Both the position numbers and the translations under genes were made by a program. The notes beneath the pieces were generated by a model. It saw nothing but the letters and a program-made list of their open reading frames with translations, ran no database searches and had not been told where the DNA came from. DNA of 64,000 nucleotides from an uncultured Lachnospiraceae bacterium (GTDB lineage: Bacteria > Bacillota > Clostridia > Lachnospirales > Lachnospiraceae), in contig CANOKL010000017.1 of NCBI GenBank assembly GCA_947566645.1, forward strand, positions 1 through 64,000, written 5' to 3'. This document shows positions 35,127-53,957 of the stretch, one piece after another. How positions within the stretch are numbered: position 1 is the first letter of the stretch; every line of letters begins with the position of its first letter.

Positions 35127-37313
35127 ATGGTAATTCAATATGATGAAGAGAAGAGGATTTTTAAACTGGACACGGACAACACAACTTACATGATTGGCAT
35201 TTCGCAGGAAGGGTATGTTGGACACATGTACTACGGAAAGCGGCTTGCGAATTTTGGAGGGAAATACCTGCTGCGGATGGAAGAGGCACCCTACACGCCG
35301 TCGGTCCATATGAGGGAGAAGGCTTCCTTTCTGGATATTTACCCCATGGAGTACCCGACGGGAGGAACCGGCGATTACCGGGAGAGCTGCCTGAATGTGC
35401 GGGGTGAATCAGGGAGTATCGGGAGCGAGCTGTTTTATGCCAGGCATGAGATTATGGCCGGGAAGCCGGCACTTAGCGGGCTTCCGGCATCCTTTGGGAC
35501 AGAAGAGGAAGTAACGACACTGCGTCTTATATGCATCGACCCGCTTCTGGGGCTTGAGGTAACGCTTTTGTATTCCGTGTTCGGGAAGGAAGACATGATT
35601 ACAAGGAGTGTGCAGATCAGGAATGCAGGAGAGCAGAAGCTGCGGCTTGAGAAGGTATACAGCGCCTGTCTGGATATGGACAACCGGGATTTTGAGATGA
35701 TCAGCCTCTGTGGTTCGTGGGCAAGGGAACGGCATATACAGAGAGCAAAAGTCCATTACGGGAAGCAGCTTGTATCATCCTTTAAAGGAGAATCCAGTCA
35801 TCAGGAGCACCCCTTCGCTGCACTTGTAACACCGGAGACAACACAGGAAACAGGAGAAGTGTATGCCATGCATTTCGTGTATTCCGGCAATTTTACCGCC
35901 CAGGCAGAACGCACCCAGTTTGACTATATCCGGATGGTGATGGGAATCCATGCAGAGGAATTCTGCTGGAGGCTGGCGCCGGGTGAGAGCTTCCAGGCAC
36001 CGGAGGCAGTGATGACCTATTCGGACCAGGGTCTGGGGAAGATGACCCGCTCCTTCCATGATTTTTACAGGGAGCATCTCATCAGAAGCCCCTATAAATA
36101 CAGGAAACGCCCGGTACTCATCAATAACTGGGAAGCAACATACTTTGAGTTTGATACAGAGAAGCTTCTGTCCATTGCGAAGGAAGCGAAGGAAAACGGG
36201 ATTGAGATGCTGGTCATGGATGACGGCTGGTTTGGAAAGAGAAGCTGGGATGACAGCTCCCTTGGAGACTGGACGGTAAATGAGGAGAAGATTAAAGGCG
36301 GTCTTCCCAGCCTGGTAAAACAGGTAAGAGAGCTTGGAATGGAGTTCGGCATCTGGTTTGAGCCGGAGATGATTTCCCCTGATTCAGAGCTTTACAGAGC
36401 ACATCCGGACTGGGCGATTCAGATTCAGGGAAGGGAGCCGTCACAGAGCAGGGCGCAGTATGTTCTTGACCTCTCCAGGAAAGAAGTGCGGGACTATGCA
36501 TATGAGTGTGTGGCAAAGATACTGCGAAGCGCGCCCATCACATATGTGAAGTGGGATATGAACCGCCAGTTGTGTGATCTTGGAAGCATCTGTCTTCCGA
36601 AAGAGGCCCAGGGAGAGCTGTGCCACCGGTATGTACTGGGGCTCTATGAGATGCAGGAGCGTCTTGTGACAGAATTTCCGGAGCTGCTCCTTGAGAACTG
36701 TTCCGGCGGAGGGGCAAGGTTTGATCCTGGCATGCTCTATTACAGCCCTCAGATCTGGTGCTCGGATGATACGGACGCCATTGAGAGACTTCGCATCCAG
36801 GAAGGAACAGAGCTGATCTATCCCTTGTCCACCATGGGCGCCCATGTGAGCGACTGTCCGAATCATATTGTGGGCAGGACGACGCCCTTTGAGACAAGGG
36901 GAAATGTTGCACTTGCGGGAACCTTCGGCTATGAGCTGGATATTACGAAGATATCGGATGAAGAGAGAACACAGATTCCCGGACAGGTGGAGCTGTATCA
37001 TAAATATCAGGAACTGATACAGACAGGGGATTATTACAGAATTACTTCCTGGAGTGACAGGAATCCTTTTGACTGCTGGGAGACGGCGGCAAAAGACGGG
37101 ACACATGCGCTGGTTACCTGTGTGCAGGTGCTGGGACAGCCCAATGTACACAGCAGGAACATTAAGTTAAAGGGACTAAAGGAAGAGTCACGCTACAGAC
37201 TGGAAGGAACAGAAGAGATATATACGGGTGAGGAGCTGATGTACTGCGGCTTCCTTGTGAGAGATCTGAACGGAGACTTTATGAGCAGGCTGTATCATTT
37301 TATCTGTGAATAA
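35127..37313 (+). CDS. GH36 alpha-galactosidase
   Basis: A 728-residue cytoplasmic enzyme releasing alpha-1,6-galactose from raffinose-type or galactomanno-oligosaccharides. It has an N-terminal beta-supersandwich, a TIM barrel and a C-terminal beta domain. The nucleophile is D477 in YVKWDMNR; the acid/base lies in CSDDTDAIERL (D547/D548). Further signatures are VMDDGWFG and GIWFEPEMISPDS. CGGAGGA precedes the start. The neighbouring mannan genes suggest galactomannan side-chain removal after import. It is followed by a second LacI gene whose frame begins around its stop. Confidence 0.95.
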   Translation: MVIQYDEEKRIFKLDTDNTTYMIGISQEGYVGHMYYGKRLANFGGKYLLRMEEAPYTPSVHMREKASFLDIYPMEYPTGGTGDYRESCLNVRGESGSIGSELFYARHEIMAGKPALSGLPASFGTEEEVTTLRLICIDPLLGLEVTLLYSVFGKEDMITRSVQIRNAGEQKLRLEKVYSACLDMDNRDFEMISLCGSWARERHIQRAKVHYGKQLVSSFKGESSHQEHPFAALVTPETTQETGEVYAMHFVYSGNFTAQAERTQFDYIRMVMGIHAEEFCWRLAPGESFQAPEAVMTYSDQGLGKMTRSFHDFYREHLIRSPYKYRKRPVLINNWEATYFEFDTEKLLSIAKEAKENGIEMLVMDDGWFGKRSWDDSSLGDWTVNEEKIKGGLPSLVKQVRELGMEFGIWFEPEMISPDSELYRAHPDWAIQIQGREPSQSRAQYVLDLSRKEVRDYAYECVAKILRSAPITYVKWDMNRQLCDLGSICLPKEAQGELCHRYVLGLYEMQERLVTEFPELLLENCSGGGARFDPGMLYYSPQIWCSDDTDAIERLRIQEGTELIYPLSTMGAHVSDCPNHIVGRTTPFETRGNVALAGTFGYELDITKISDEERTQIPGQVELYHKYQELIQTGDYYRITSWSDRNPFDCWETAAKDGTHALVTCVQVLGQPNVHSRNIKLKGLKEESRYRLEGTEEIYTGEELMYCGFLVRDLNGDFMSRLYHFICE

Positions 37314-38528: not shown

Positions 38529-38554
38529 AAAATAAAAACGGAGGTATGAAAACA

Positions 38555-39913
38555 ATGAAAAAGAGACTACTTAGTATTGCACTGGCTCTGACCATGACAG
38601 TATCACTGGCAGCCTGCGGCAGCAAGAGCGAGGGAGGAGGAGACAGCGGCTCTTCAGCAGAAGTCCCCACGATTGACAAGATTAATGGCGACGACTACAA
38701 AGACCTGAAAGCGGACATTAAGATTCTGACAGACCGTACAGACATTGTAGACACCGTGTACAAGGGATATGCGGACCAGTTCCATGAGAAATATCCCAAC
38801 ATCACCGTTACATATGAGGCAATCACAGATTATGCAGAATCTGTAACACTTCGTCTGACAAACGGCGACTGGGGCGACATCTGCTTCATTCCGGCAACTG
38901 TAGAAAAGAGTGAGATGGAGACCTATTTCACGCCAATGGGCGACTACGCGACACTCAACGACAAGTACAACTTCGTAACAGAGAAGACATACAACAATAC
39001 GGTTTATGGTATCCCGAACGGCGGTACAGCAGGCGGCGTGGCATATAACAAGCGTATCTGGAAGGATGCCGGAATCACAAAGCTTCCTACAACTCCGGAC
39101 GAATTCCTGGCTGATTTGAAGCTCATTAAGGATAAGACAGATGCGGTTCCTCTTTACACAAACTTTTCAGCAGGATGGACAATGGGAGCATGGAACGACT
39201 ATGTGGGAATTGCTTCCAATGCAGATGCTGATTATAAGAACAACAAGCTGCTTCATCAAAAAGACCCATTCACAAAGAATGACGAGATGAGCGGCCCCTA
39301 TGCAGTATTCTACACCTTATATGAGGCAGTAAAGCAGAAACTTGTAGAGGAAGACCCGGCCTCTAGCGACTGGGAATCCTCAAAAGGCATGATCAACAAG
39401 GGCGAGGTTGCCACAATGGTTCTTGGTTCCTGGTGTGTACAGCAGTTCAAGGATGCAGGAGAAAATCCGGATGATATCGGATACTTCCCGTTCCCGATCA
39501 CGGTAGCAGGGAAACAGGCGGCTGCATCAGGCGGAAACTACGCTTACGGAATCAACAACAAGGCAAGCTCTGACAACCAGATTGCCGCTATGCTGTATGT
39601 AAAATGGATCTTAGAGGAATCCTCCATGTTCGCTGATGAGGGCAGTATCCCGGCAGTGAAGGGTGAGCCTCTTCCGGATTCACTGGCAGAATTTGAGGGT
39701 GTTGAACTCCTTTCCGACAATCCGCCTCAGGAAGGCGAAGAGAGCCTGTACGATGATATCCGCAATACAGCAGAAGTATTGAGCGGTGACTATCCGGTAT
39801 GTGAAGTTCTTGAGGCAGCGCTTTATGACAGCAAGAAATTAGACGACCTGATGGGTGAGTGGAACGAAAAATGGACAAGCGCTCAGGAAAGCTTCTCAGT
39901 AGAAGTAAAATAA
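38555..39913 (+). CDS. CUT1-type ABC sugar-binding lipoprotein (mannooligosaccharides)
   Basis: A 452-residue lipoprotein with lipobox SLAAC (C21), a Ser/Gly linker and a family 1 solute-binding fold. ATG 38555 has ACGGAGG about ten bases upstream; the ATG nine bases earlier is too close to it. It heads the importer of the mannan locus. The ligand, inferred from the GH130, GH36 and epimerase genes downstream, is beta-manno- or galactomanno-oligosaccharide. Confidence 0.88.
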   Translation: MKKRLLSIALALTMTVSLAACGSKSEGGGDSGSSAEVPTIDKINGDDYKDLKADIKILTDRTDIVDTVYKGYADQFHEKYPNITVTYEAITDYAESVTLRLTNGDWGDICFIPATVEKSEMETYFTPMGDYATLNDKYNFVTEKTYNNTVYGIPNGGTAGGVAYNKRIWKDAGITKLPTTPDEFLADLKLIKDKTDAVPLYTNFSAGWTMGAWNDYVGIASNADADYKNNKLLHQKDPFTKNDEMSGPYAVFYTLYEAVKQKLVEEDPASSDWESSKGMINKGEVATMVLGSWCVQQFKDAGENPDDIGYFPFPITVAGKQAAASGGNYAYGINNKASSDNQIAAMLYVKWILEESSMFADEGSIPAVKGEPLPDSLAEFEGVELLSDNPPQEGEESLYDDIRNTAEVLSGDYPVCEVLEAALYDSKKLDDLMGEWNEKWTSAQESFSVEVK

Positions 39914-39956
39914 GGGCTGCTCAGAATAACCAGTACCGGACAGTTACTGATTTTTA

Positions 39957-39993
39957 AAGAAGGAGCCCTGATGAACCGGGGCTCCTTCTTCCT
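39957..39993 (+). terminator. Strong stem-loop between binding-protein and permease genes
   Basis: A 12-bp stem AAGAAGGAGCCC / GGGCTCCTTCTT ends in a short pyrimidine run. Likely a partial terminator or mRNA stabiliser giving excess binding protein over permeases, comparable in position to the stem in the beta-glucan importer. Confidence 0.65.
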
Positions 39994-40049
39994 CATGATA
40001 TAGAAAACTTCGTACCCTATATCACGAATAAATGGAAAGGAGAAAACAA

Positions 40050-41039
40050 ATGGAGAAAAAATCCTTTAAGAAATGGATCGGTACCAGAAAGGTGCAGAGG
40101 AGACTGGTAATCTTTACGTTTATGTTAGTCCCCCTTTTGCTTCTTCTGTTATTTACCTACATTCCCTTTGTCGAAATGATACGGTTCAGCTTTTATAACA
40201 TGAAATATATCGGAGAGAGAACCTTCGTAGGACTGAAAAACTATGCCGAGGTATTTGAACGCAAGGAGATCTTCGGCTCTCTCTTCAACAGCCTTTACTA
40301 CATGGCAGGCGGAGTGGTACAGCTTGCACTTGCACTGTTCTTTGCGACTATGATGGTATTCAAGGTAAAAGGAGAATCCGTATTCAAGGGAGCCATGTTC
40401 TTCCCATACCTGATCTGCGGTATTGCGGTTGGTTTCATTTTCAAATTCTTCTATGCAAGGGGAGCCGTACTGGATACGATCCTCCAGGGACTTGGAATGA
40501 ATCTTGATAATATTCCCCTGTGGCTGCAGGACCAGAGCATTAATAACATCTCCCTTGCAGCAACATCTGTGTGGAGGTACACCGGACAGAATGTCATCCT
40601 GTTTCTTGGAGCCATGATGTCAGTAGATACAGACCTGTATGAGGCGGCGTCTCTTGACGGGGCAAACAGATGGCAGCAGTTCCGCTATATTATTCTGCCA
40701 AGTATCAAGTCAATTATCGTGTTAAATATTATCCTGTGTGTCAGCGGATGCTTAAGCGCATTCGAGCCGCCTTACGTTATTACGAATGGTACAATGGGTA
40801 CAGGTACATACTTCGTAATCATGAACCGGATTGCCCATGAGAATCAGAAGGTCGGTACAGCAAGCGCTATGGCCATTGTTCTGTTAGTACTGATCATTAT
40901 CTGCACCATTGGCCAGAAGCTGTTCTTCAAGTATGCATTTGACGACGGGACAAGTGATGAATCAAAGGCAGCGGTAAGAAAGAGAAAGAAAGCAGAGGCA
41001 CAGCGTAAAGCAATGGAGAAAAAAGGAGGCGCAGCATAA
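40050..41039 (+). CDS. CUT1 ABC sugar permease, MalF-type (mannan locus)
   Basis: A 329-residue permease with six hydrophobic segments and EAA loop EAASLDGANRWQQFRYIILP. The ATG at 40050 is preferred: AAAGGAG lies eight bases before it, while the ATG at 40032 has none. The tail is basic and Ala-rich. As in the beta-glucan importer no ATPase gene accompanies it. Confidence 0.92.
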   Translation: MEKKSFKKWIGTRKVQRRLVIFTFMLVPLLLLLLFTYIPFVEMIRFSFYNMKYIGERTFVGLKNYAEVFERKEIFGSLFNSLYYMAGGVVQLALALFFATMMVFKVKGESVFKGAMFFPYLICGIAVGFIFKFFYARGAVLDTILQGLGMNLDNIPLWLQDQSINNISLAATSVWRYTGQNVILFLGAMMSVDTDLYEAASLDGANRWQQFRYIILPSIKSIIVLNIILCVSGCLSAFEPPYVITNGTMGTGTYFVIMNRIAHENQKVGTASAMAIVLLVLIIICTIGQKLFFKYAFDDGTSDESKAAVRKRKKAEAQRKAMEKKGGAA

Positions 41040-41885
41040 ATGAAAATGAAAAAGAATGCATCATCAATTATATTTTCGATTATTAAATATGTGTCACTGA
41101 TTCTGGCATCCATTGTATCGCTGGCTCCGGTTGTTGTCTGCGTGCTGACTTCGTTTAAGACCAATGAGGAATACGCGTCAACTACAGTGTTGGAATTTCC
41201 GGAATCCTTCGGATATTTTGAAAACTTTAAGATTGCCATGGAGAAGGCAAACATGCTGCGGTGCTTTGGAAATACGGCGCTGGTACTGATCGTTGTACTG
41301 ACAGTCTCCGTATTTACAGGCTCCATGCTGGCTTATGTCATCAACCGGTTTACCTTCCCGGGAAGAGGAATGATTGAGAACCTGTTCCTGTTTGCCTCCC
41401 TGCTTCCAGGTATTGCCATGCAGGTAACGATTTATCAGATTATGTATTCACTGGGACTGATTAATCACCTGTACGGATACATGATCGTGCTGATGGGTAC
41501 GGATATTATTTCCATCTATATCTTCCTTCAGTTCTTTGAGAATCTGCCGGTATCCCTGGATGAGTCGGCGATCATGGACGGATGTACGTATTTTGGAGTC
41601 TTCTTTAAGATCCTGTTCCCGCTTCTTAAGCCTGCGATCATGACGTCACTGGTGCTTAAGGGTGTAAGCGTGTACAATGAGTACTATTCCTCCAACCTGT
41701 ATCTGCAGCTGCCGGAATTAAAGACCATATCAACAGCGCTTTATACCTTTACAGGCCCTTACGGAAACCAGTACAACTACATCTGTGCAGGCGTTCTGAT
41801 TACCATTATCCCGATTCTGGTATTCTTCCTTGTATTCCAGAAACAGGTATACAGCGGTATGGCAAATGGAGCAGTAAAAGGCTAA
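41040..41885 (+). CDS. CUT1 ABC sugar permease, MalG-type (mannan locus)
   Basis: A 281-residue permease with six hydrophobic segments and EAA-type loop (DESAIMDGCTYFGVFFKILFP, near 175-195). The start abuts the stop of the upstream permease, with AGGAGG inside that gene. Forms the heterodimeric channel with it. Confidence 0.92.
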   Translation: MKMKKNASSIIFSIIKYVSLILASIVSLAPVVVCVLTSFKTNEEYASTTVLEFPESFGYFENFKIAMEKANMLRCFGNTALVLIVVLTVSVFTGSMLAYVINRFTFPGRGMIENLFLFASLLPGIAMQVTIYQIMYSLGLINHLYGYMIVLMGTDIISIYIFLQFFENLPVSLDESAIMDGCTYFGVFFKILFPLLKPAIMTSLVLKGVSVYNEYYSSNLYLQLPELKTISTALYTFTGPYGNQYNYICAGVLITIIPILVFFLVFQKQVYSGMANGAVKG

Positions 41886-41903: not shown

Positions 41904-42926
41904 ATGAGCAATGTAAAAATATTAGCGCCTGCCGTGCCGAATATGCCCTGGCAGGACAGACCTGATCATTTAAACGGAGCGCCTGTATGGCGCTTCGAAG
42001 ACAATCCGGTGATCGGAAGAAATCCTGTAAAAGGGGTAGCGAGAATCTTCAACAGCGCGGTCATGCCCTATGAAGGGGAATTCATCGGTGTATTCAGAGG
42101 CGAGCAGACCAACGGAATTCCATATATTTACCTGGGGAGAAGCAGGGATGCCATACACTGGGAGTTTGACGAGGAGAAGATCCCCTTCACAGACGAAGAG
42201 GGTAATCCCTTTATGCCGGTCTATGCATATGACCCGAGGCTTGTAAAGGTTGAAGATGCCTATTATCTGATCTGGTGCCAGGACTTTTACGGCGCATCCA
42301 TCGGAATGGCAAGGACAACGGATTTCAAAGTATTTACGAGAATGGAGAATCCCTTTATTCCATTTAACAGAAATGCAGTGCTTTTCCCGAGGAAGATCAA
42401 CGGTAATTATGTAATGCTGTCAAGGCCAAGTGACAGCGGCCATACTCCCTTTGGAGACATCTTCCTGTCAGAGAGCCCGGATCTCGTATACTGGGGCAGA
42501 CACCGCCATGTGATGGGAAAGAGCCCGGAGTGGTGGGAATCCCTTAAAATCGGCGGCGGCGCGGCACCCATTGAGACAACAGAAGGATGGCTCCTGTTCT
42601 ACCACGGAGTCGGGGGAACCTGCAACGGATATGTATACAGTATCGGCGGCGCGATTCTTGATATTGACAACCCGTCAGTGGTAAAGTACCGCTGCGAGAA
42701 CTTCCTGCTGACCCCGGAGGACTGGTATGAGGAGAGAGGATTTGTTCCCAATGTTACCTTCCCCTGTGCCACTATCCACGACAGCGAAACAGGAAGGATT
42801 GCAATCTATTACGGGGCAGCGGACACTTATGTAGGCCTTGCCTTCACGACTGTGCAGGAGATTGTGGAATATATTAAAAACCATAGCGTAGTCAGGGAAG
42901 CAGACACAGAAGTGGGAAAAAGATAA
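41904..42926 (+). CDS. GH130 beta-1,4-mannooligosaccharide phosphorylase
   Basis: A 340-residue five-bladed-propeller enzyme of family GH130. The candidate catalytic aspartate is D110 in YAYDPRLV; other family blocks are NPVIGRNP, FRGEQ, NAVLFPRKINGNY and GGGAAPIET. It resembles the subgroup (GH130_2) that phosphorolyses beta-1,4-mannooligosaccharides to mannose-1-phosphate and a shorter chain. AAAGGAGA precedes the start. It sits between importer and epimerase in the classical mannan-degradation order. Confidence 0.88.
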   Translation: MSNVKILAPAVPNMPWQDRPDHLNGAPVWRFEDNPVIGRNPVKGVARIFNSAVMPYEGEFIGVFRGEQTNGIPYIYLGRSRDAIHWEFDEEKIPFTDEEGNPFMPVYAYDPRLVKVEDAYYLIWCQDFYGASIGMARTTDFKVFTRMENPFIPFNRNAVLFPRKINGNYVMLSRPSDSGHTPFGDIFLSESPDLVYWGRHRHVMGKSPEWWESLKIGGGAAPIETTEGWLLFYHGVGGTCNGYVYSIGGAILDIDNPSVVKYRCENFLLTPEDWYEERGFVPNVTFPCATIHDSETGRIAIYYGAADTYVGLAFTTVQEIVEYIKNHSVVREADTEVGKR

Positions 42927-42967: not shown

Positions 42968-44146
42968 ATGGAAAGCTTTGTAAAAGAGATTAAGCATCAT
43001 CTTGAGACAACATTAATTCCTTTCTGGGAGGGTCTCCGGGATGATGAATACGGCGGATACTACGGATATATGGACTATGATCTTCAGACAGACCGGACCT
43101 ATGAGAAGGGATGTATTCTCAACAGCCGTATATTATGGTTCTTTTCAAATGCATATCTGCTATTGGAAAAGGAGAGCCTGAAGGAGGAGGCGGCACATGC
43201 GTACCGCTTCCTTAAGAACCACTGCCTGGATGAAGAGTGCGGCGGAGTGTTCTGGTCCGTGACCTATGACGGACAGATCAAAGACGACACAAAGCATACG
43301 TACAATCAGGCATTTGCAATCTATGCACTTTCTTCTTATTATAAAGCGGCAAAGGACGAGGAAGCGCTTAAGCTGGCGCTTTCTCTCCAAAGGCTGATCG
43401 AGGAGCGGTGCACGGATTCCCTGGGATACCTGGAAGCCTTTACAAGAGACTTTAAACCTGTGGATAATGAGAAGCTGTCGGAAAACGGCGTGATGGCAGA
43501 AAAGACCATGAACACCCTGCTCCATGTATTCGAGGCATACACAGAGCTCTACCGTGTAAGCAAAGATGAGAAGGTGGCGGACCGCCTCAGGTTCATGCTG
43601 GGACTTATGGCCGGCAAGGTATATAACAGAGAGCTTGGCAGGCAGGAGGTATTTTTTGACAGGAAGTGGAATTCCTTAATTGATCTTTACTCCTATGGCC
43701 ATGATATCGAAGCCGCCTGGCTGATTGACAGAGGCCTTGAGGTGCTGGGAGATCCCGTGTACACAGAGAAGCTGTCCCCCATTACGAAGGAGATTACGAA
43801 AAATATTTATGAGCGTGCCTTCTACGAGGGGGCGCTTCTGAATGAGGCAGAAAAGGGCGTGCCGGACACTACGAGAGTGTGGTGGGTCCAGGCAGAGGGA
43901 ATCGTGGGCTTTGTGAACGGCTACCAGAAAAACTTTCAGAATACAGCATATCTGAAGGCAGCAGAATCCCTTTGGGACTACATTGCCACCTACCTCATTG
44001 ACAGGCGGGATGGCTCCGAATGGTTCTGGGCAGCGGACAAGAACAACCTTCCCATCCAGAAGCCCATTGTAGAGCCCTGGAAATGTCCTTACCACAATGG
44101 ACGTATGTGTATAGAAGTAATCAGGAGGCTTGGACATGATACATAG
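42968..44146 (+). CDS. Cellobiose 2-epimerase
   Basis: A 392-residue alpha/alpha-barrel protein of the AGE/cellobiose 2-epimerase family. Candidate catalytic histidines are H245 ([11 protein letters not shown]) and H376 (CPYHNGRM), with the flanking Trp residues of VWWVQAEG. It should turn beta-1,4-mannobiose into mannosyl-glucose, the substrate of the phosphorylase encoded next. The next gene's start overlaps its 3' end by 11 bases, indicating tight coupling. Confidence 0.92.
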
Positions 44147-45311
44147 CAGATATTTTGAAGAACTGAAAAAATATGAGGAATTAATCCGGCGTGAAAATAA
44201 AAAGAGCCGCTTTTACAACGGCGTTTTCGACCGGTACGAGTATCCGGTGCTCACCAGGGAGCACATTCCCCTGTATTGGAAATATGACCTGGATGAGGAG
44301 ACAAACCCATTCTTCATGGAGCGCCTGGGGGTCAATGCGGTCATGAACTCCGGGGCAGTTGAACTGAACGGGAAGTTTTACCTGGTAGCCCGGGTGGAGG
44401 GCGCAGACAGGAAATCCTTCTTTGCCGTTGCAGAGAGTGACAACGGGATCTCCGGTTTCCGGTTCTGGGATTATCCGGTTGTGCTGCCGGATACCTGCCC
44501 GGAGGAGACCAATGTCTATGACATGCGTCTGACGAAGCACGAGGATGGCTGGATCTACGGGGTGTTCTGTTCTGAGAGCAAGGATAAGGACGACCCGGAT
44601 CTGTCGGCGGCAGTGGCGGAGGCAGGCATTGTAAGGACAAAGGATCTGAAGTCATGGGAGCGCCTGGACAACCTTACGACACTGCATTCCCCACAACAGA
44701 GAAATGTAGTGCTCCACCCGGAATTTGTAGACGGGAAGTACGCATTTTACACCCGCCCCATGGATGGCTTTATCGAAACCGGAAGCGGCGGCGGAATCGG
44801 CTTCGGGCTCTGCGATGACATAGAGCATGCAGTGATCGGCGAGGAGATTATTATCAGCAGGCGTATATACCACACCCTTACAGAAGCAAAAAACGGCGCG
44901 GGCGCTGTTCCCATAAAAGGTGGGAAATGCTGGATACACATTGCCCACGGCGTGCGGAATACGGCGGCAGGGCTGCGGTATGTGCTGTATGTCTTCGGGA
45001 CAGATCTGAAAGACCCGTCAAAGGTCATCGCCGAGCCATCAGGAGTATTCCTGGTACCTCTCGGAAAAGAGCGCACAGGCGATGTGTCCAATGTGGTATT
45101 TACAAACGGAGCCATTAAAAAAGAGGACGGCACGGTATATATTTATTATGCGTCCAGTGACACACGGATGCATGTGGCGGAGACATCTGTGGAAAAGCTT
45201 GAGGACTATCTTTTCCACACGCCAGAGGATCCCCTGCGTTCGCCTGACTGTGTAAAACAGAGATGTGAGCTGATAGACAAAAACATGGCATTATTAAAAG
45301 AGATGGGATAA
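44136..45311 (+). CDS. GH130 4-O-beta-D-mannosyl-D-glucose phosphorylase
   Basis: A 391-residue GH130 protein of the longer subgroup (GH130_1, mannosylglucose phosphorylase type). Candidate catalytic aspartate D129 lies in NVYDMRLT. Other blocks: [38 protein letters not shown] and GAGAVPIKG. It would yield mannose-1-phosphate and glucose from the epimerised disaccharide. ATG 44136 has CAGGAGG seven bases upstream inside the epimerase gene. Confidence 0.92.
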
Positions 45312-45320
45312 TTACAGTAC

Positions 45321-45348
45321 CTGAGGATCTGTCATGACAGATCCTCAG
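45321..45348. other. Perfect 28-bp palindrome within the mannan operon
   Basis: Arms CTGAGGATCTGTCA and TGACAGATCCTCAG meet without a loop. It lies nine bases after the GH130 stop and 24 bases before the next start. No T-run follows. It may be an mRNA processing or stabilising hairpin, or a protein-binding site. Confidence 0.6.
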
Positions 45349-45372
45349 CCTGCAGGAGGGAGGCCGGGGAGC

Positions 45373-45957
45373 ATGATGAAGAAATGGATTGCGGATATCA
45401 AGGAAAAAACAAAAGATATGGACCGGAGTCAGACGATCGAATATATTTGTAACTATTACTGGTATCACATCCTGCTGGGACTTATCCTTTTAGGGCTTGT
45501 CCTCCTTCTGACCTATCACATCGGGTGGGGAGACCAGAAAAAGGACTTCACCTGTGTGATTGTAAATCAGGAGATTGATTTTTCAAGAGACAGGGAAATC
45601 CGGGAGGGCTTCAGTGAATTTTCCGGGCTGGATCAGAAGAAAATAAACATAGACTCTGATTACCAGATTTCTTATACTGGTAAGGAACTGGAAGGCGTCA
45701 ACGAGAGTTCTTATGAGAAATTTTTCTTCAACTGGTCAGCCGGGGAGACGGATGCCATGATTATACCGGAAAGCTTCTATGAGTACTGTCTTCTGCAGAA
45801 CGGCGAATTTGCAGAGGACAGGATTTATATAAAGGATACCTGGCTTAAGGATATTCTGAGAGACAGTTCAGACGACCCGGTTCTGCTCGTATTTGCAGAA
45901 GAGACAAAGCATAGAGAAAACTGCATTTCGTTTATGGAATTTGTGAAAGGAAGATGA
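45373..45957 (+). CDS. Unknown single-span membrane protein of the mannan operon
   Basis: A 194-residue protein not recognised by name. A basic cytoplasmic start (KKWIADIKEKTKD) is followed by a membrane span at about 32-52 (YHILLGLILLGLVLLLTYHI). The remainder is an acidic external domain of about 140 residues with alpha/beta character and a conserved-looking SAGETDAMIIPESFYEYC segment. ATG 45373 follows GGGGAG; a longer upstream frame would begin inside the palindrome and has no ribosome site. It is directly followed by a YesL gene, a pairing suggesting an accessory role to the sugar importer. Confidence 0.6.
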   Translation: MMKKWIADIKEKTKDMDRSQTIEYICNYYWYHILLGLILLGLVLLLTYHIGWGDQKKDFTCVIVNQEIDFSRDREIREGFSEFSGLDQKKINIDSDYQISYTGKELEGVNESSYEKFFFNWSAGETDAMIIPESFYEYCLLQNGEFAEDRIYIKDTWLKDILRDSSDDPVLLVFAEETKHRENCISFMEFVKGR

Positions 45958-45960
45958 AAG

Positions 45961-46569
45961 ATGATGAAGAAAATGAATATTGAGAATCCATTTTTTGACT
46001 TTATGGGAAGGCTGGCGGACATTGTGCTATTGAACCTGTTGTTTCTTCTGTGTTCCCTGCCGGTTCTTACGATCGGTGCATCCATTGCGGCTCTCTACCA
46101 GTGCTGTGATGATATGGCAGAGGGAACCTTCATCTCATCCTTCCGCAATTTTTCCGGCGCATTCCGGAAGTATCTGAAGGGAAGCGTTAAGGTGTGGCTC
46201 GTGTTTCTCCTTACGGGCTGTCTCTTAATCTTTGATCTTACCTTCCTGGGAGGCGCCGGAGGAAGCGAGTGGAGAATCGTAGGAATTGGCGTGGGATGCC
46301 TTCTTGTATTGTGGGAAATGATTTTCTGCTATATTTTCCCGGTTTTCCTGAAAAGGGGCGGAAGCATGAGAACTATGCTTAGGGAAAGCATGCTTATGGC
46401 AATGCGGAATTTTCAGTATACACTGGTGATGGCAGTGATCAATATCATCCCCCCTGCCTGCTTCATACTGGGCGGAGGAGCGCTGGTCAATGCGGTTCCT
46501 CTGTATCTGATCTTCGGCTTCGGGCTTACGGCATTTGTGAACACATATTTTTTAAGAAGATGCGTGTGA
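45961..46569 (+). CDS. YesL family (DUF624) membrane protein
   Basis: A 202-residue protein with five hydrophobic segments and the DUF624/YesL N-terminus (ENPFFDFMGRLADIVLLNLLFLLCSLPV). Members accompany CUT1 sugar importers in many Firmicutes, but their function is not established. It starts three bases after the preceding membrane gene. Confidence 0.85.
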   Translation: MMKKMNIENPFFDFMGRLADIVLLNLLFLLCSLPVLTIGASIAALYQCCDDMAEGTFISSFRNFSGAFRKYLKGSVKVWLVFLLTGCLLIFDLTFLGGAGGSEWRIVGIGVGCLLVLWEMIFCYIFPVFLKRGGSMRTMLRESMLMAMRNFQYTLVMAVINIIPPACFILGGGALVNAVPLYLIFGFGLTAFVNTYFLRRCV

Positions 46570-46671: not shown

Positions 46672-48390
46672 ATGGACAGGAAAAAACTATACGAATTTTG
46701 GTGCAGTGATCCGTATTTTGATGCGGCAGCACAGGAAGAGCTAAGAGGGATCGCAGATGACGAGAAGGAGATCAGCGAGCGGTTCTATAAGGACCTGGAA
46801 TTTGGGACCGGGGGGCTAAGAGGAATTATCGGAGCCGGGACAAACCGTATGAATATCTATACGGTAAGGAAGGCAACCCAGGGGCTTGCCAATTACATCT
46901 TAAAGGAACATGCCCAGGACAAAGGAATTGCCATTGCCTTTGACTCCCGGAATCTGTCCCGGGAGTTTGCCGAGGAGACGGCCCTGTGTATGGCGGCAAA
47001 TGGGATCAGGGCATATATTTTCCCGACACTTAAGCCCACGTCCATGCTGTCTTTTGCACTCCGTGAGCTTGGATGTACGGCAGGAGTCGTAATCACCGCA
47101 AGCCACAACCCCGCAGAATACAACGGCTACAAAGTATACTGGGAGGACGGCGCACAGATTACCGCGCCCAGGGATCAGGAGATCATCTCAGAGGTGAATG
47201 CCATTACAGATTACGCGTCCGTAAAGACTATGAGCCGGGAGGAGGCACAGGAGAAAGGCCTCTATGAGGTAATCGGACCTGAGATGGACGATCAATATAT
47301 GGAAGCCCTAAAGAGCCTGGTGCTTTTCCCGGAGACCGTAAGGGAGCAGGGGGAGAAGCTTACCATCGTCTATACACCGCTGCACGGAACGGGAAATCTT
47401 CCAGTAAGAAGGATTTTAAAAGAGCTTGGCTTTGAAAAGGTCTACGTGGTAGAAGAGCAGGAACAGCCGGACGGAAACTTCCCGACCGTCTCCTACCCCA
47501 ACCCGGAAGACAAAGATGCATTTTCACTGGCTCTGAAGCTTGCAGAAAAGGTGGATGCAGACCTGGTTCTTGCCACAGACCCGGATGCAGACAGACTTGG
47601 AATCTTCGCAAAGGACACAGACGGCGGATATCAGAGCTTCAATGGAAATATGTCCGGCATGCTCATTATGGAATATCTGCTGTCCGGCAGAAAGAGCCTG
47701 GGAAGGCTTCCAAAAAACAGCGCGGTTGTTACAACTATTGTCTCAGGAAAGATGTCAGAGCGGATTGCCCGCGCCTACGGTGTGGAGCTGATTCAGACAC
47801 TGACCGGATTCAAATACATCGGGGAGCAGATCAAATTCTTCGAACAGACAGGCTCCCATGAATTTATTTTCGGCTATGAGGAAAGCTATGGATGCCTGGA
47901 AGGGACACATGCCCGGGATAAAGACGCAGTAGTTGCAGTCATGGCACTGTGCGAGGCGGCTGCTTATTATAAAAAGCAGGGGATCACGCTCTGTGAGCAG
48001 ATGGAGCACCTTTTCCAAAAATACGGTTATTACAAGGAAGATCTGTGCACCGTCACCCTGAAAGGACAGGAGGGCGCAGGAAGGATCCGGGCGATTATGG
48101 AAAAGATCCGTGAGAATGTGCCTGTCACCATCGGCGCAAGAAAGGTCCGCGCATTCCGGGACTACGCTGCAGGAACCATAAAGAACCTGGAGGATGGCAC
48201 TGTCACAGAAACCGGGCTTCCGAAGTCAGATGTCCTGTATTTTGAATTTGACCAGGATGCATGGTGCTGTGTCAGACCCTCCGGCACAGAGCCTAAGATC
48301 AAATTCTATGTAGGAGTAAGAGGGACAGATGGGGCGGATGCCGAAACACAGCTTCAGGAGCTGATGCAGGCAGTGACAGCGCTGGTATAG
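46672..48390 (+). CDS. Alpha-phosphohexomutase (phosphoglucomutase/phosphomannomutase)
   Basis: A 572-residue alpha-D-phosphohexomutase of the PgcA type. Catalytic phosphoserine S144 in ITASHNPAEYNGYK; metal loop DPDADRLG; sugar loop GYEESYG; phosphate loop RPSGTEPKIKFY. In this operon it should turn mannose-1-phosphate released by the GH130 enzymes into mannose-6-phosphate, and may also handle glucose-1-phosphate from the GH94 enzymes. AAAGGAGA precedes the start. Confidence 0.93.
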   Translation: MDRKKLYEFWCSDPYFDAAAQEELRGIADDEKEISERFYKDLEFGTGGLRGIIGAGTNRMNIYTVRKATQGLANYILKEHAQDKGIAIAFDSRNLSREFAEETALCMAANGIRAYIFPTLKPTSMLSFALRELGCTAGVVITASHNPAEYNGYKVYWEDGAQITAPRDQEIISEVNAITDYASVKTMSREEAQEKGLYEVIGPEMDDQYMEALKSLVLFPETVREQGEKLTIVYTPLHGTGNLPVRRILKELGFEKVYVVEEQEQPDGNFPTVSYPNPEDKDAFSLALKLAEKVDADLVLATDPDADRLGIFAKDTDGGYQSFNGNMSGMLIMEYLLSGRKSLGRLPKNSAVVTTIVSGKMSERIARAYGVELIQTLTGFKYIGEQIKFFEQTGSHEFIFGYEESYGCLEGTHARDKDAVVAVMALCEAAAYYKKQGITLCEQMEHLFQKYGYYKEDLCTVTLKGQEGAGRIRAIMEKIRENVPVTIGARKVRAFRDYAAGTIKNLEDGTVTETGLPKSDVLYFEFDQDAWCCVRPSGTEPKIKFYVGVRGTDGADAETQLQELMQAVTALV

Positions 48391-48434: not shown

Positions 48435-50297
48435 ATGGCATTATTAAAATTAGCACCAGGCTTTAAGGATTACCTCTGGGGAGGCCGCCGCCTGGTGGAG
48501 GAATATCATAAGCAATATGAAGGCGATGTACTGGCAGAAAGCTGGGAACTTTCCTGCCACCCAGACGGACCTTCGAAGATTACAAATGGAAGTTATGCAG
48601 GAAAGACCCTGCAGGAATACATTGATCAGGAAGGAAGAGAGGTGCTGGGAACCCATTGCCGGAGATTCCGGGATTTCCCCATACTCGCGAAATTCATTGA
48701 CGCAAAAGACAACCTGTCCATACAGGTGCATCCCAATAACCGGTACGCCCTGAAAAATGAGGGACAGTACGGAAAGACGGAGATGTGGTACGTCATGGAT
48801 GCCGGAAAAGATGCCTATCTTTACTATGGCTTCAAAACTGAGATCAGCAAAGAAGAATTCGAAAAAAGGATTCAGGAGGACACTCTTCTGGAGGTGCTTA
48901 ATGCAGTCCCAGTACAGAAAGGGGATGTCCTGTTCATTGAATCCGGAACCATCCACGCAATCGGAAAAGACATTCTCATCGCCGAGATCCAGCAGAATTC
49001 CAACGTAACCTACCGTGTATATGATTACGGAAGAGTGGGAAAGGACGGGAAAAAGCGAGATTTACACATTGAAAAGGCGCTGGCAGTCACCAACCGCGTT
49101 CCCATCATAAGGGATAAGAGCAGCTACCCCCATGTGGCAGACTGCGACTATTTTACCGTAGACAAACTGAACCTGGACGGCAGGGTCATGAAACGCATGG
49201 AAGGCTTCGTGTCAGAAGAATCATTTGCCAGTATCCTGATCCTGGACGGAGAAGGAAAAATCACCATGGGGGAAGAAGAACTTCCCTATCAGAAAGGCGA
49301 CAGCTTCTTCCTGAGTGCCGGGAGCGGAACCTATCAGATAGAAGGCATCTGCGATGCCCTTGTCACCACCATCCGGGAGAAAGCAGCCCCCGTCCGCATC
49401 GGAATTGACATGGGAAGCACCCGGACAAGAATAGGCCTCGTAGATGTCCATCAGAAGCTTTTAGCATCCACAGAGATTCCCACAGACACCTCCTGCGAAC
49501 CCGGAAAAGCAATTCAAAAAATAGCAGAAGCCGCACTTGCCCTTTTGGAGCAGCAGAAAATTCCCATGGACCAGTGCGTTGGCGCAGGAATCGGCGTACC
49601 GGGAACCATAGACCGGAAGGCAGGAATCGTACGCTACTCCAACAATATCCGCTGGGAGCAGGTAAAGCTGAAAGAAGAGCTGGGAGCCTGGCTCCCCATC
49701 CCCATAAGCATTGCAAACAATGCGGACTGCGCAGCCTTCGGTGAGGCAGTGGCAGGCGCCGGAAAAGAATGCCAGGATGTAGTCATGCTCACAATCGGCG
49801 CCGGTGTAGGCGGCGGCATCATCCTGGACGGCGAGATCTATCAGGGCAAAGGAATCGGCGGAAGCGAACTGGGACATATGGTAATCGTAGAAGACGGCAA
49901 AGACTGCACCTGCGGCCGCAAGGGCTGCCTGGAAGCCTATGCCTCCCTCACCGCTCTCCAGAAAGCAGCAGAAGCCGCCACCAGACAGAATCTCACCCCG
50001 GAAGAAATCTTCCAGGGTGCAGCACAAGGCAATCAGGCACTCAGAAAAGTAACAGAAGACTACACCCGCAAGCTAGGCACAGGAATCGTCAATATCGTCA
50101 ACATCTTCCGTCCCCAGTTAGTCATCCTTGGAGGCAGCATATCCGCCTGGGGCGGCATGCTCCTTGTTCCCCTCCAGGAACAAATCGAAAAAGACTGCTT
50201 CGGCGGTAAGCAGGGAGAAATCCCTAAGATCGAGATGGCGGCGCTTGGAAAAGAGGCCGGGATGATCGGGGCAGCTTTGGGGACGGGGCATTTCTAA
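48435..50297 (+). CDS. Fused mannose-6-phosphate isomerase and ROK sugar kinase
   Basis: A 620-residue two-domain enzyme. Residues 1 to about 315 are a class I mannose-6-phosphate isomerase of the short Firmicute type (KDYLWGGRRL, IQVHPNN, KTEMWYV, and SGTIHAIG with zinc ligands). Residues about 320-620 are a ROK kinase: ATP loop IGIDMGSTRTRIG (from 322), GVPGTID, the ELGH motif and zinc motif CTCGRKGCLEAY. It would phosphorylate free mannose (or glucose) and isomerise mannose-6-phosphate to fructose-6-phosphate. The C-terminal GTGHF and stop come from the palindromic repeat. There is no stop or frameshift between domains. Last gene of the mannan operon. Confidence 0.9.
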   Translation: MALLKLAPGFKDYLWGGRRLVEEYHKQYEGDVLAESWELSCHPDGPSKITNGSYAGKTLQEYIDQEGREVLGTHCRRFRDFPILAKFIDAKDNLSIQVHPNNRYALKNEGQYGKTEMWYVMDAGKDAYLYYGFKTEISKEEFEKRIQEDTLLEVLNAVPVQKGDVLFIESGTIHAIGKDILIAEIQQNSNVTYRVYDYGRVGKDGKKRDLHIEKALAVTNRVPIIRDKSSYPHVADCDYFTVDKLNLDGRVMKRMEGFVSEESFASILILDGEGKITMGEEELPYQKGDSFFLSAGSGTYQIEGICDALVTTIREKAAPVRIGIDMGSTRTRIGLVDVHQKLLASTEIPTDTSCEPGKAIQKIAEAALALLEQQKIPMDQCVGAGIGVPGTIDRKAGIVRYSNNIRWEQVKLKEELGAWLPIPISIANNADCAAFGEAVAGAGKECQDVVMLTIGAGVGGGIILDGEIYQGKGIGGSELGHMVIVEDGKDCTCGRKGCLEAYASLTALQKAAEAATRQNLTPEEIFQGAAQGNQALRKVTEDYTRKLGTGIVNIVNIFRPQLVILGGSISAWGGMLLVPLQEQIEKDCFGGKQGEIPKIEMAALGKEAGMIGAALGTGHF

Positions 50298-52700: not shown

Positions 52701-52742
52701 ATTGGGGACGGGGCATTTTTAAAAATGCCCCGTCCCCAATTT
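52699..52742. repeat. GTGHF palindromic repeat, copy 6 (perfect 44 bp)
   Basis: A perfect palindrome with arm AAATTGGGGACGGGGCATTT plus TT. It lies between the convergent MFS and ROK genes. It encodes GTGHF-stop of the ROK gene on the minus strand, while the MFS stop is at its edge. Expected to terminate both transcripts. Confidence 0.88.
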
Positions 52743-53957
52743 AAACAATTCATTTCCTATAATATAAGAATTTCCTCCCCGGAGGCTGGGATCAAGTGTT
52801 GTTGAGCGTTTTTTTTCGATTGGAGTTAATTCTACTTCGGGTATTTCATAAAAATGAAAGTACTGCTCAATATCTTTATGCAGAAGCGAGAAAAATTCAT
52901 TTGAAAAGGGCAGCTCATCTCCAATTACAATCTGGTGAGGTGAGAATATGTTAATCAAAATAATCAGCAGCTGTGAAAGTTCATAAGCGACTTCTGTGTA
53001 GATCTGTACAGCCAGTGGATCGTCTGAGTTATATGCATGAAATAGATCGTGGTAGGTAAATTCCTGCAATTGTGCAAGCGAAGAGTCAGGAAACTGGCTG
53101 CATAATTTTTTCGCACGTTCTACAATTGGTGCGATAGTCAGAAGCTCGGTAACACTTTTTCGTTCGCCGTCTGAGGCACTCTTGATATAAATATTTTTCA
53201 GGGAATCTGCCGTAGAAAAGGCGCCCTGATATATATGGCCGTAATGTAAGAAGCTCATGTCTACGGATGTGCTGACGGACAGATATAATACAATCTTTTC
53301 TTCTGCATTCTGGAGTATATTTGCATGGTATAGCCAGTATAGTACAAAATCAGCAGTTCGTTCAATATAAACCGGATATGAAAAAGTAGAACGAAAATAA
53401 TCCCCAATATTAATTCTCTTAATTGTCGGAGAGAACGGTTCATAATATTCGCAGGTGTCAGGCGTGAATAGAAAACTGTCATGAACTCCGATTGAGATTC
53501 CCAGTATCGTCAGATTGCCGCTGAGAATGATAAATTGTTCAATTTTACTGGAAATCTGAATTAAAGTCTGAGAAAAATTTTCATATGTATGATAAGAAAT
53601 TTTTTCAAAAGTAATACAATCTGAATTAATATCAAATAGGCCTACGACATAATAGGAAGAGGTAATGCGGATATTGATTGTGCAAAACTTTTTCTGTATG
53701 AGCCGGAGGCCTTTGACTCTGCGTTGGTTTTCTCTTTCAATAAATCCACATTCTTCAACGATATTATTCCTTAAGAATTCATTGATGATAATTGTAATTG
53801 TTGCAGGCTTCAGGCTGCTTAATTCTGCAAGTCTGATACGGGATATGACTTTATGGCGCTGGATAAGATTTAAGATTAATTTCCGGTTATTGATCTGTAC
53901 ATTTGAAATATTTTGTCCCTGGTGTTTCGGAGGATTTAAGAGGTAATCTGTGAACAT
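52719..53957 (-). CDS. ROK family transcriptional repressor of the polyol operon
   Basis: A 412-residue NagC/XylR-type regulator: N-terminal winged helix (RKLILNLIQRHKVISRIRLAELSSLKPATITIIINEF, about 25-60) followed by a degenerate ROK sugar-binding domain. The kinase zinc motif CxCGxxGC is missing, which fits a regulator. It diverges from the polyol operon, with two identical operator-like boxes in the 497-base gap. The last residues LGTGHF are encoded by the palindromic repeat. The gene is noticeably A/T-richer than its neighbours. Confidence 0.88.
   Translation of the reverse strand: MFTDYLLNPPKHQGQNISNVQINNRKLILNLIQRHKVISRIRLAELSSLKPATITIIINEFLRNNIVEECGFIERENQRRVKGLRLIQKKFCTINIRITSSYYVVGLFDINSDCITFEKISYHTYENFSQTLIQISSKIEQFIILSGNLTILGISIGVHDSFLFTPDTCEYYEPFSPTIKRINIGDYFRSTFSYPVYIERTADFVLYWLYHANILQNAEEKIVLYLSVSTSVDMSFLHYGHIYQGAFSTADSLKNIYIKSASDGERKSVTELLTIAPIVERAKKLCSQFPDSSLAQLQEFTYHDLFHAYNSDDPLAVQIYTEVAYELSQLLIILINIFSPHQIVIGDELPFSNEFFSLLHKDIEQYFHFYEIPEVELTPIEKKRSTTLDPSLRGGNSYIIGNELFKLGTGHF

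Follow-up and report, generated by a model that had tools for sequence, protein, structure and literature searches.

Does the ROK domain that is joined to a mannose-6-phosphate isomerase in an uncultured Lachnospiraceae bacterium still act as a sugar kinase? The fused gene lies in a stretch of 64,000 nucleotides (contig CANOKL010000017.1, positions 1 to 64,000), the whole of which is called the window here. An earlier note on this DNA had proposed that the gene couples a mannokinase to the isomerase, with intact motifs in both halves. The features of the gene and of its neighbourhood are collected in Table 1.

Table 1. Features of the fused gene and of the mannan operon in the window
Feature	Positions	Strand	Remark
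GH36 alpha-galactosidase family	35127..37313	+	
Sugar ABC importer, binding protein and two permeases	38546..41885	+	named from the ORFs
GH130a, best match with a named function a mannooligosaccharide phosphorylase	41904..42926	+	393 bits
AGE-family epimerase, cellobiose/mannobiose 2-epimerase type	42968..44146	+	295 bits to EpiA; model cut-off of 800 not reached
GH130b, nearest to mannosylglucose phosphorylases	44130..45311	+	612 bits to 5ay9
Phosphoglucomutase/phosphomannomutase-family mutase, directly upstream of the fusion	46672..48390	+	
Fused gene, type I mannose-6-phosphate isomerase and ROK domain	48435..50297	+	620 aa
Isomerase half, residues 1-311	48435..49367	+	
Short joint (about 10 residues), residues 312-321	49368..49397	+	domain borders
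ROK half, residues 322-614	49398..50276	+	good-confidence model
ATP motif D325-M-G-S328-T329 (DMGST)	49407..49421	+	DxGxT kept
Codon 429, Asn at the place of the catalytic Asp of ROK kinases	49719..49721	+	
Codon 456, Ala at the Thr position of the second phosphate loop	49800..49802	+	GTG to GAG
ExGH motif (ELGH 478-481) with E478 and H481, sugar/zinc, kept	49866..49877	+	roles after PMC2742894 by motif order
Zinc motif CTCGRKGCLE (491-500, CxCGxxGCxE) with sugar-binding E500, kept	49905..49934	+	roles after PMC2742894 by motif order

The fused gene runs from ATG to TAA through 620 codons with zero stops inside, so the single uninterrupted frame joining ManA to a ROK domain was confirmed. The isomerase half scored 160.3 bits in a profile search with TIGR00218 (cut-off 116.2) and matched PMI_typeI_cat and MPI_cupin_dom (PF20511 and PF21621) above cut-off, and its nearest solved chain is 1qwr (190 bits). 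The QVHP...KTE...H motif is present, and Q97, H99, E116, and H174, which we take to be the metal-site ligands of the isomerase, are invariant across the aligned fusions (n = 26). Judged by its sequence, this half is intact. The ROK half scored 219 bits against PF00480 (cut-off 22.9). Pfam searches of the fused protein (E up to 0.001) returned the isomerase, cupin, and ROK families only; the N-terminal DNA-binding domain of ROK repressors was absent at that threshold.

To see how widespread the fusion is, named genome records were scanned. Among the matches listed, 31 of 80 loci hold an intact full-length fusion; of the remainder, 3 run off a contig, a stop or a frameshift disrupts 3, 1 has an internal loss, 1 has its two parts in neighbouring frames, and 41 have an isomerase match alone, meaning no same-strand ROK match at E 1e-10 in the DNA examined. 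Intact full-length fusions were found in 13 of the 397 sampled genomes of the window's family, and one further genome has a copy with an in-frame stop. An order-wide sample of 392 genomes (matches at E 1e-100 or better) added fusions in another family (G606 and G558, 48-49% identity). Because intact full-length fusions recur in other genomes, the fusion is not a sequencing accident, which disposes of the concern raised with the original claim that an error might hide a stop between the domains. GH130 genes (at least 60% identity) accompany 18 of these 31 intact fusions in the DNA examined; among the 13 without one are several short contigs. The isomerase and the ROK protein are separate neighbouring genes in G087, G066, and L126. 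In other genomes of the window's bacterial family, isomerases of the same kind are joined to other partners: GH1 at L037:3270-5573, and a mannose-1-phosphate guanylyltransferase-type protein (nucleotidyltransferase/MannoseP_isomer) at L031:5342-7786 and L033:4258-6594. Longer fusions of 658-695 aa, with extra residues relative to the window protein, occur in L091, L094, L096, and L160.

ROK proteins have four signatures, among them a strictly conserved catalytic Asp, according to PMC5458393. The window protein carries three of them (DxGxT, ExGH, and CxCGxxGCx(E/D)) and fails in the catalytic Asp signature. When the protein was aligned with three ROK sugar kinases of solved structure, Asn429 fell on the catalytic Asp, in a part of the alignment free of gaps. 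Standalone glucokinases from the window's bacterial family served as the control, and of 56 matches the best 30 were taken. They showed no departure at the scored sites and form one orthologous group, probably under strong constraint. All 30 have Asp at position 429, Gly where the window protein has S328, and Thr at the place of A456. The statement that motifs are intact in both halves therefore holds for the isomerase half and fails for the ROK half. In human ManNAc kinase, the change of the catalytic Asp to Ala or Asn is reported to abolish activity (PMC10465942). A sequencing error at codon 429 is unlikely because G004 and G003:C5, which come from other assemblies, have Asn there too. D431 was considered as a substitute base and rejected, since unaltered relatives already carry NDAD and the residue is thus no new base. 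ATP binding may remain because the window protein keeps D325 and a literal DxGxT.

We extended the comparison to 49 aligned fused ROK domains (45 clusters at 95%). This set includes the ROK halves of the frameshifted G003:C5 and L113 and the in-frame-stop copies G004 and L081; it leaves out L095, L097, and L098, which run off their contigs (L095 has Asn at 429), the truncated L105, L157, L158, G002, and G000:C53, and the duplicates L146 and L150. D325 of DxGxT was lost in 14 domains and D429 in 13; at least one of these aspartates was lost in 25 and both in 2, and 24 of the 49 retained the pair. The replacement at 429 was Asn in 13 of 13 cases, and D325 was replaced by seven residues (A, H, W, E, S, T, and N). 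On the sugar side, N428, E478, H481, and E500 did not depart in any of 196 cells, nor did the three zinc cysteines in any of 147 (0/343 in total). Because the set contains near-identical members, the clusters were counted as well: 24 of the 45 were without an aspartate, again with 0 departures at the sugar and zinc residues. Full-length altered fusions spread across 8 genus codes among the sampled family and order genomes. All nine ATP/catalytic sites were canonical in 11 of the 46 fused domains scored; the two aspartates are the safer yardstick, because site 460 varies in the otherwise canonical distant fusions L112 and L203.

The genomic setting bears on what the ROK half could be needed for. 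The fusion does sit at the end of a mannan operon, as the earlier note had it, with the GH130 pair, the epimerase, and the mutase in one gene run. The top match of GH130a is 1vkd, a protein without a named function. The ORFs entered in Table 1 as a sugar ABC importer are presumably a binding protein and two permeases (the binding protein had zero NCBIfam matches), and we assume that a LacI-type regulator gene is among the upstream genes of the operon. Two ORFs of 207 and 202 aa lie between GH130b and the mutase (45334-46569); counterparts of both occur in loci L021, L022, L024, and L038, and the second resembles YesL. Downstream of the fusion on the minus strand (52719-53957) is a ROK-family protein resembling NagC/Mlc regulators, at 98 bits, below the cut-offs of the models. 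Rfam gave zero matches at gathering scores across window positions 34000-54500. The host bacterium appears equipped to digest plant fibre mannan. The operon follows a scheme of an epimerase and two phosphorylases that has been described for Roseburia intestinalis and Faecalibacterium prausnitzii, with mannose-1-phosphate and glucose as products; in both papers, mannose that is released goes to a hexokinase that is not named (PMC6385246, PMC8262883). The products predicted for the window operon are likewise mannose-1-phosphate and glucose, free mannose probably being no main product; a mannokinase would therefore be unnecessary. Thus the idea that both free mannose and mannose-1-phosphate arise here keeps its second part, as a prediction, and the first is probably minor.

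These results argue against an active bifunctional mannokinase-isomerase in the window. Such an enzyme would suit the single frame, the mannan setting, and the presence of DxGxT, ExGH, and the zinc motif, and the relatives with both aspartates or with all nine sites canonical speak for it, as does the free mannose set loose by GH113 enzymes in a related pathway, as reported in PMC8262883. The window protein itself has D429N, the change reported to abolish the human enzyme (PMC10465942), together with A456 and S328 and no new substitute base. The sequence of its ROK half matches glucokinases better (147 bits) than it does the Arthrobacter glucomannokinase (56 bits) or 1xc3, the ROK fructokinase of B. 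subtilis with a solved structure (37 bits), which belongs to a distant ROK branch, and its TIGR00744 glucokinase score of 199.8 bits is below the cut-off of 260.35. We consider a mannokinase here very unlikely, and the assignment made in the earlier note is not upheld. The 24 fusions with both aspartates may, from their residues, be true bifunctional enzymes, and relatives that keep the catalytic residues could act in that way, perhaps on mannose.

If the ROK half is not a kinase, it may simply be decaying. In this explanation, the main rival to the one we favour, a dispensable kinase drifts by chance toward deletion and leaves the isomerase with a useless tail. Its chief support is found in the stops, the frameshift, the C-lobe losses, and the remnant seen in the window genome and its relatives. 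In a sample of six genomes of the genus, no full-length fusion is intact except the window copy: the isomerase half of G004 is broken by an in-frame stop, G003:C23 has a stop, G003:C5 a frameshift, G002 a truncated copy, and G001 a remnant, and G005 is without a fusion match. The window genome itself has a second mannan locus (contig C53, 5639-6979, L038) whose fusion holds the ROK N-lobe only (446 aa). The C-lobe is likewise cut out in frame, with the last residues kept, in G002 (443 aa), G179 (441 aa), and L105 (449 aa); L158 is shorter still, and in Anaerocolumna aminovalerica (L099) the isomerase ends in a few ROK-like residues. The ROK half is missing from some relatives, or is there without its C-lobe, so not every member needs it. 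Among the genus relatives, the fusion is interrupted by a frameshift in L023 and by an in-frame TAG in L021 and L022, where TAG closes an ordinary gene too and recoding is therefore unlikely. The in-frame C-lobe losses in L024, L157, and L105 resemble that of L038, with junctions at related AALG(E/N) and LGxxAGMIGAA stretches. Readthrough or recoding of TAG in G004 and G003 was rejected because, of the 8 ORFs examined at each of these loci, 1 that is an ordinary gene likewise terminates in TAG.

Selection on the altered ROK halves speaks against simple decay. Over the 12 pairs made up of two altered members, dN/dS of the ROK halves was 0.043-0.286, far under 1. The values among L092, L094, and L100 were 0.043, 0.054, and 0.140; the window against G004 gave 0.066, with synonymous change near saturation, and the close pair L091/L160 gave 0.286. 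Pairs with both aspartates gave 0.034-0.104 (5 of 8 pairs gave a value). The somewhat higher values of the altered pairs, a point in favour of decay, hint at some relaxation. The ratio of ROK to isomerase dN was 1.1-4.6 in altered pairs and 1.5-4.4 in unaltered ones. Purifying selection still acts on the altered ROK halves, although it may have slackened a little. Chance decay also fits poorly with the absence of departures at the sugar and zinc residues, with Asn as the sole replacement at 429, and with the spread of full-length altered fusions over 8 genus codes. We regard this explanation as somewhat unlikely.

Trees and clade tests were run on 44 rows, 22 of them altered. The best tree, whose backbone is poorly resolved, shows 4 changes at position 429, and 10 when a change in either aspartate is counted. 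A single clade of all 22 altered rows was rejected (p 4e-7), as was a single clade of the D325-lost set (p 2e-6); the loss arose more than once. For the D429N set a single clade was not rejected (p 0.078), so its events may be fewer than 4. A paired test of aspartate loss against losses at other nucleotide sites found 2 independent pairs on supported branches and has no power. NDAN and DxGGT, with both aspartates, are kept in L202 and L203, which belong to another family of the order, and in L112, which is distant from the rest. These canonical motifs point to an active ancestor: early fusions probably worked both as kinases and as isomerases, and the kinase function disappeared on more than one occasion. 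L202, L203, and L112 are themselves possible active kinase-isomerases.

The structural model of the fused protein is confident for the ROK half (block means 71-96, mostly above 80). It is of low confidence for the isomerase half, where most of residues 9-252 are under pLDDT 50, and therefore we claim nothing on the packing of the halves. The nearest solved structures to the modelled ROK half are ROK glucokinases (best Z 37.7, rmsd 2.1, 304 residues). Thus this group (2qm1, 3vgk; TIGR00744) is closest both by sequence and by fold, and the window ROK lacks its catalytic Asp. Close behind is the repressor Lmo0178 in its inducer-bound form (Z 34.8, rmsd 2.7, 299 residues). Similar to the window ROK, Lmo0178 (PDB 5f7p/q/r) has Asn at the catalytic position, a GAG loop, and the ExGH and zinc motifs, and its ROK fold, solved with inducer, serves ligand binding. 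The likeness is partial because Lys replaces N428 there, and in ROK repressors a DNA-binding part stands in front whereas the window protein has an isomerase in that place. Repressors are a known case of ROK domains that have no kinase activity, and the isomerase and ROK halves each belong to known families.

The ROK half might instead merely dimerise or stabilise the isomerase, its ligand binding being incidental. ROK proteins form butterfly-shaped dimers with a C-terminal dimerisation domain, as stated in PMC5458393, and the zinc and core residues are kept. The C-lobe is gone, however, in the truncated relatives, and a scaffold does not by itself account for the invariance of N428, E478, and E500, the sugar contacts outside the zinc site. 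This role for the ROK half seems improbable.

The reading we favour, tentatively and with a little less than even confidence, is an isomerase with a C-terminal sugar-binding ROK pseudokinase, probably regulatory in the manner of the part of ROK repressors that takes up the inducer. Mannose-1-phosphate freed by the GH130 enzymes would be converted to mannose-6-phosphate by the neighbouring mutase, and the isomerase half would turn this into fructose-6-phosphate. The ROK half would have no useful kinase activity and would bind a free hexose without phosphorylating it, most likely glucose, the second product of mannosylglucose phosphorolysis, or mannose. Closure of the ROK half on the sugar would act, by way of the short joint, on the isomerase or on the assembly state of the protein, and the isomerase step would in this way track the sugar supply. 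With Asn for Asp, the side chain is unchanged in size and still offers a hydrogen-bonding group, and the base is gone, which fits binding without catalysis. The kept Glu, His, and Cys residues could serve folding alone, which counts against the pseudokinase. A wider proposal, that the kinase was repeatedly turned into a built-in sugar sensor, with the nucleotide side abandoned, Asp changed to Asn only, and the bound hexose gating the flux from mannan to glycolysis, is possible yet doubtful on these data.

Known systems offer partial parallels. In the B. subtilis glucomannan operon, the ROK fructokinase GmuE and the isomerase GmuF are separate, unfused genes. GNE, too, has an isomerising enzyme placed ahead of its ROK domain, which in GNE is an active kinase; the isomerising enzyme is unrelated to ManA. 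The five sugar residues of GNE, given as N516, D517, E566, H569, and E588 in PMC2742894, correspond by motif order to N428, N429, E478, H481, and E500 of the window protein. A search of titles and abstract openings in the openly licensed literature found no published ManA-ROK fusion or enzyme-attached ROK pseudokinase. Another parallel is in Roseburia intestinalis, where the isomerase of the GH130 mannan locus has GH1, in place of ROK, as its partner; in PMC6385246 this GH1 domain was inactive on all substrates tested and its significance was called unclear by the authors. A dead catalytic partner may thus be a habit of this isomerase.

If the pseudokinase reading is true, the label of sugar kinase would be wrong for about half of the sampled fusions (25/49). 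The family would then hold a natural series, from a kinase-isomerase with a complete site through a kinase-dead fusion and an N-lobe stub to a bare isomerase, which would allow a direct test of how a pseudoenzyme regulator is made.
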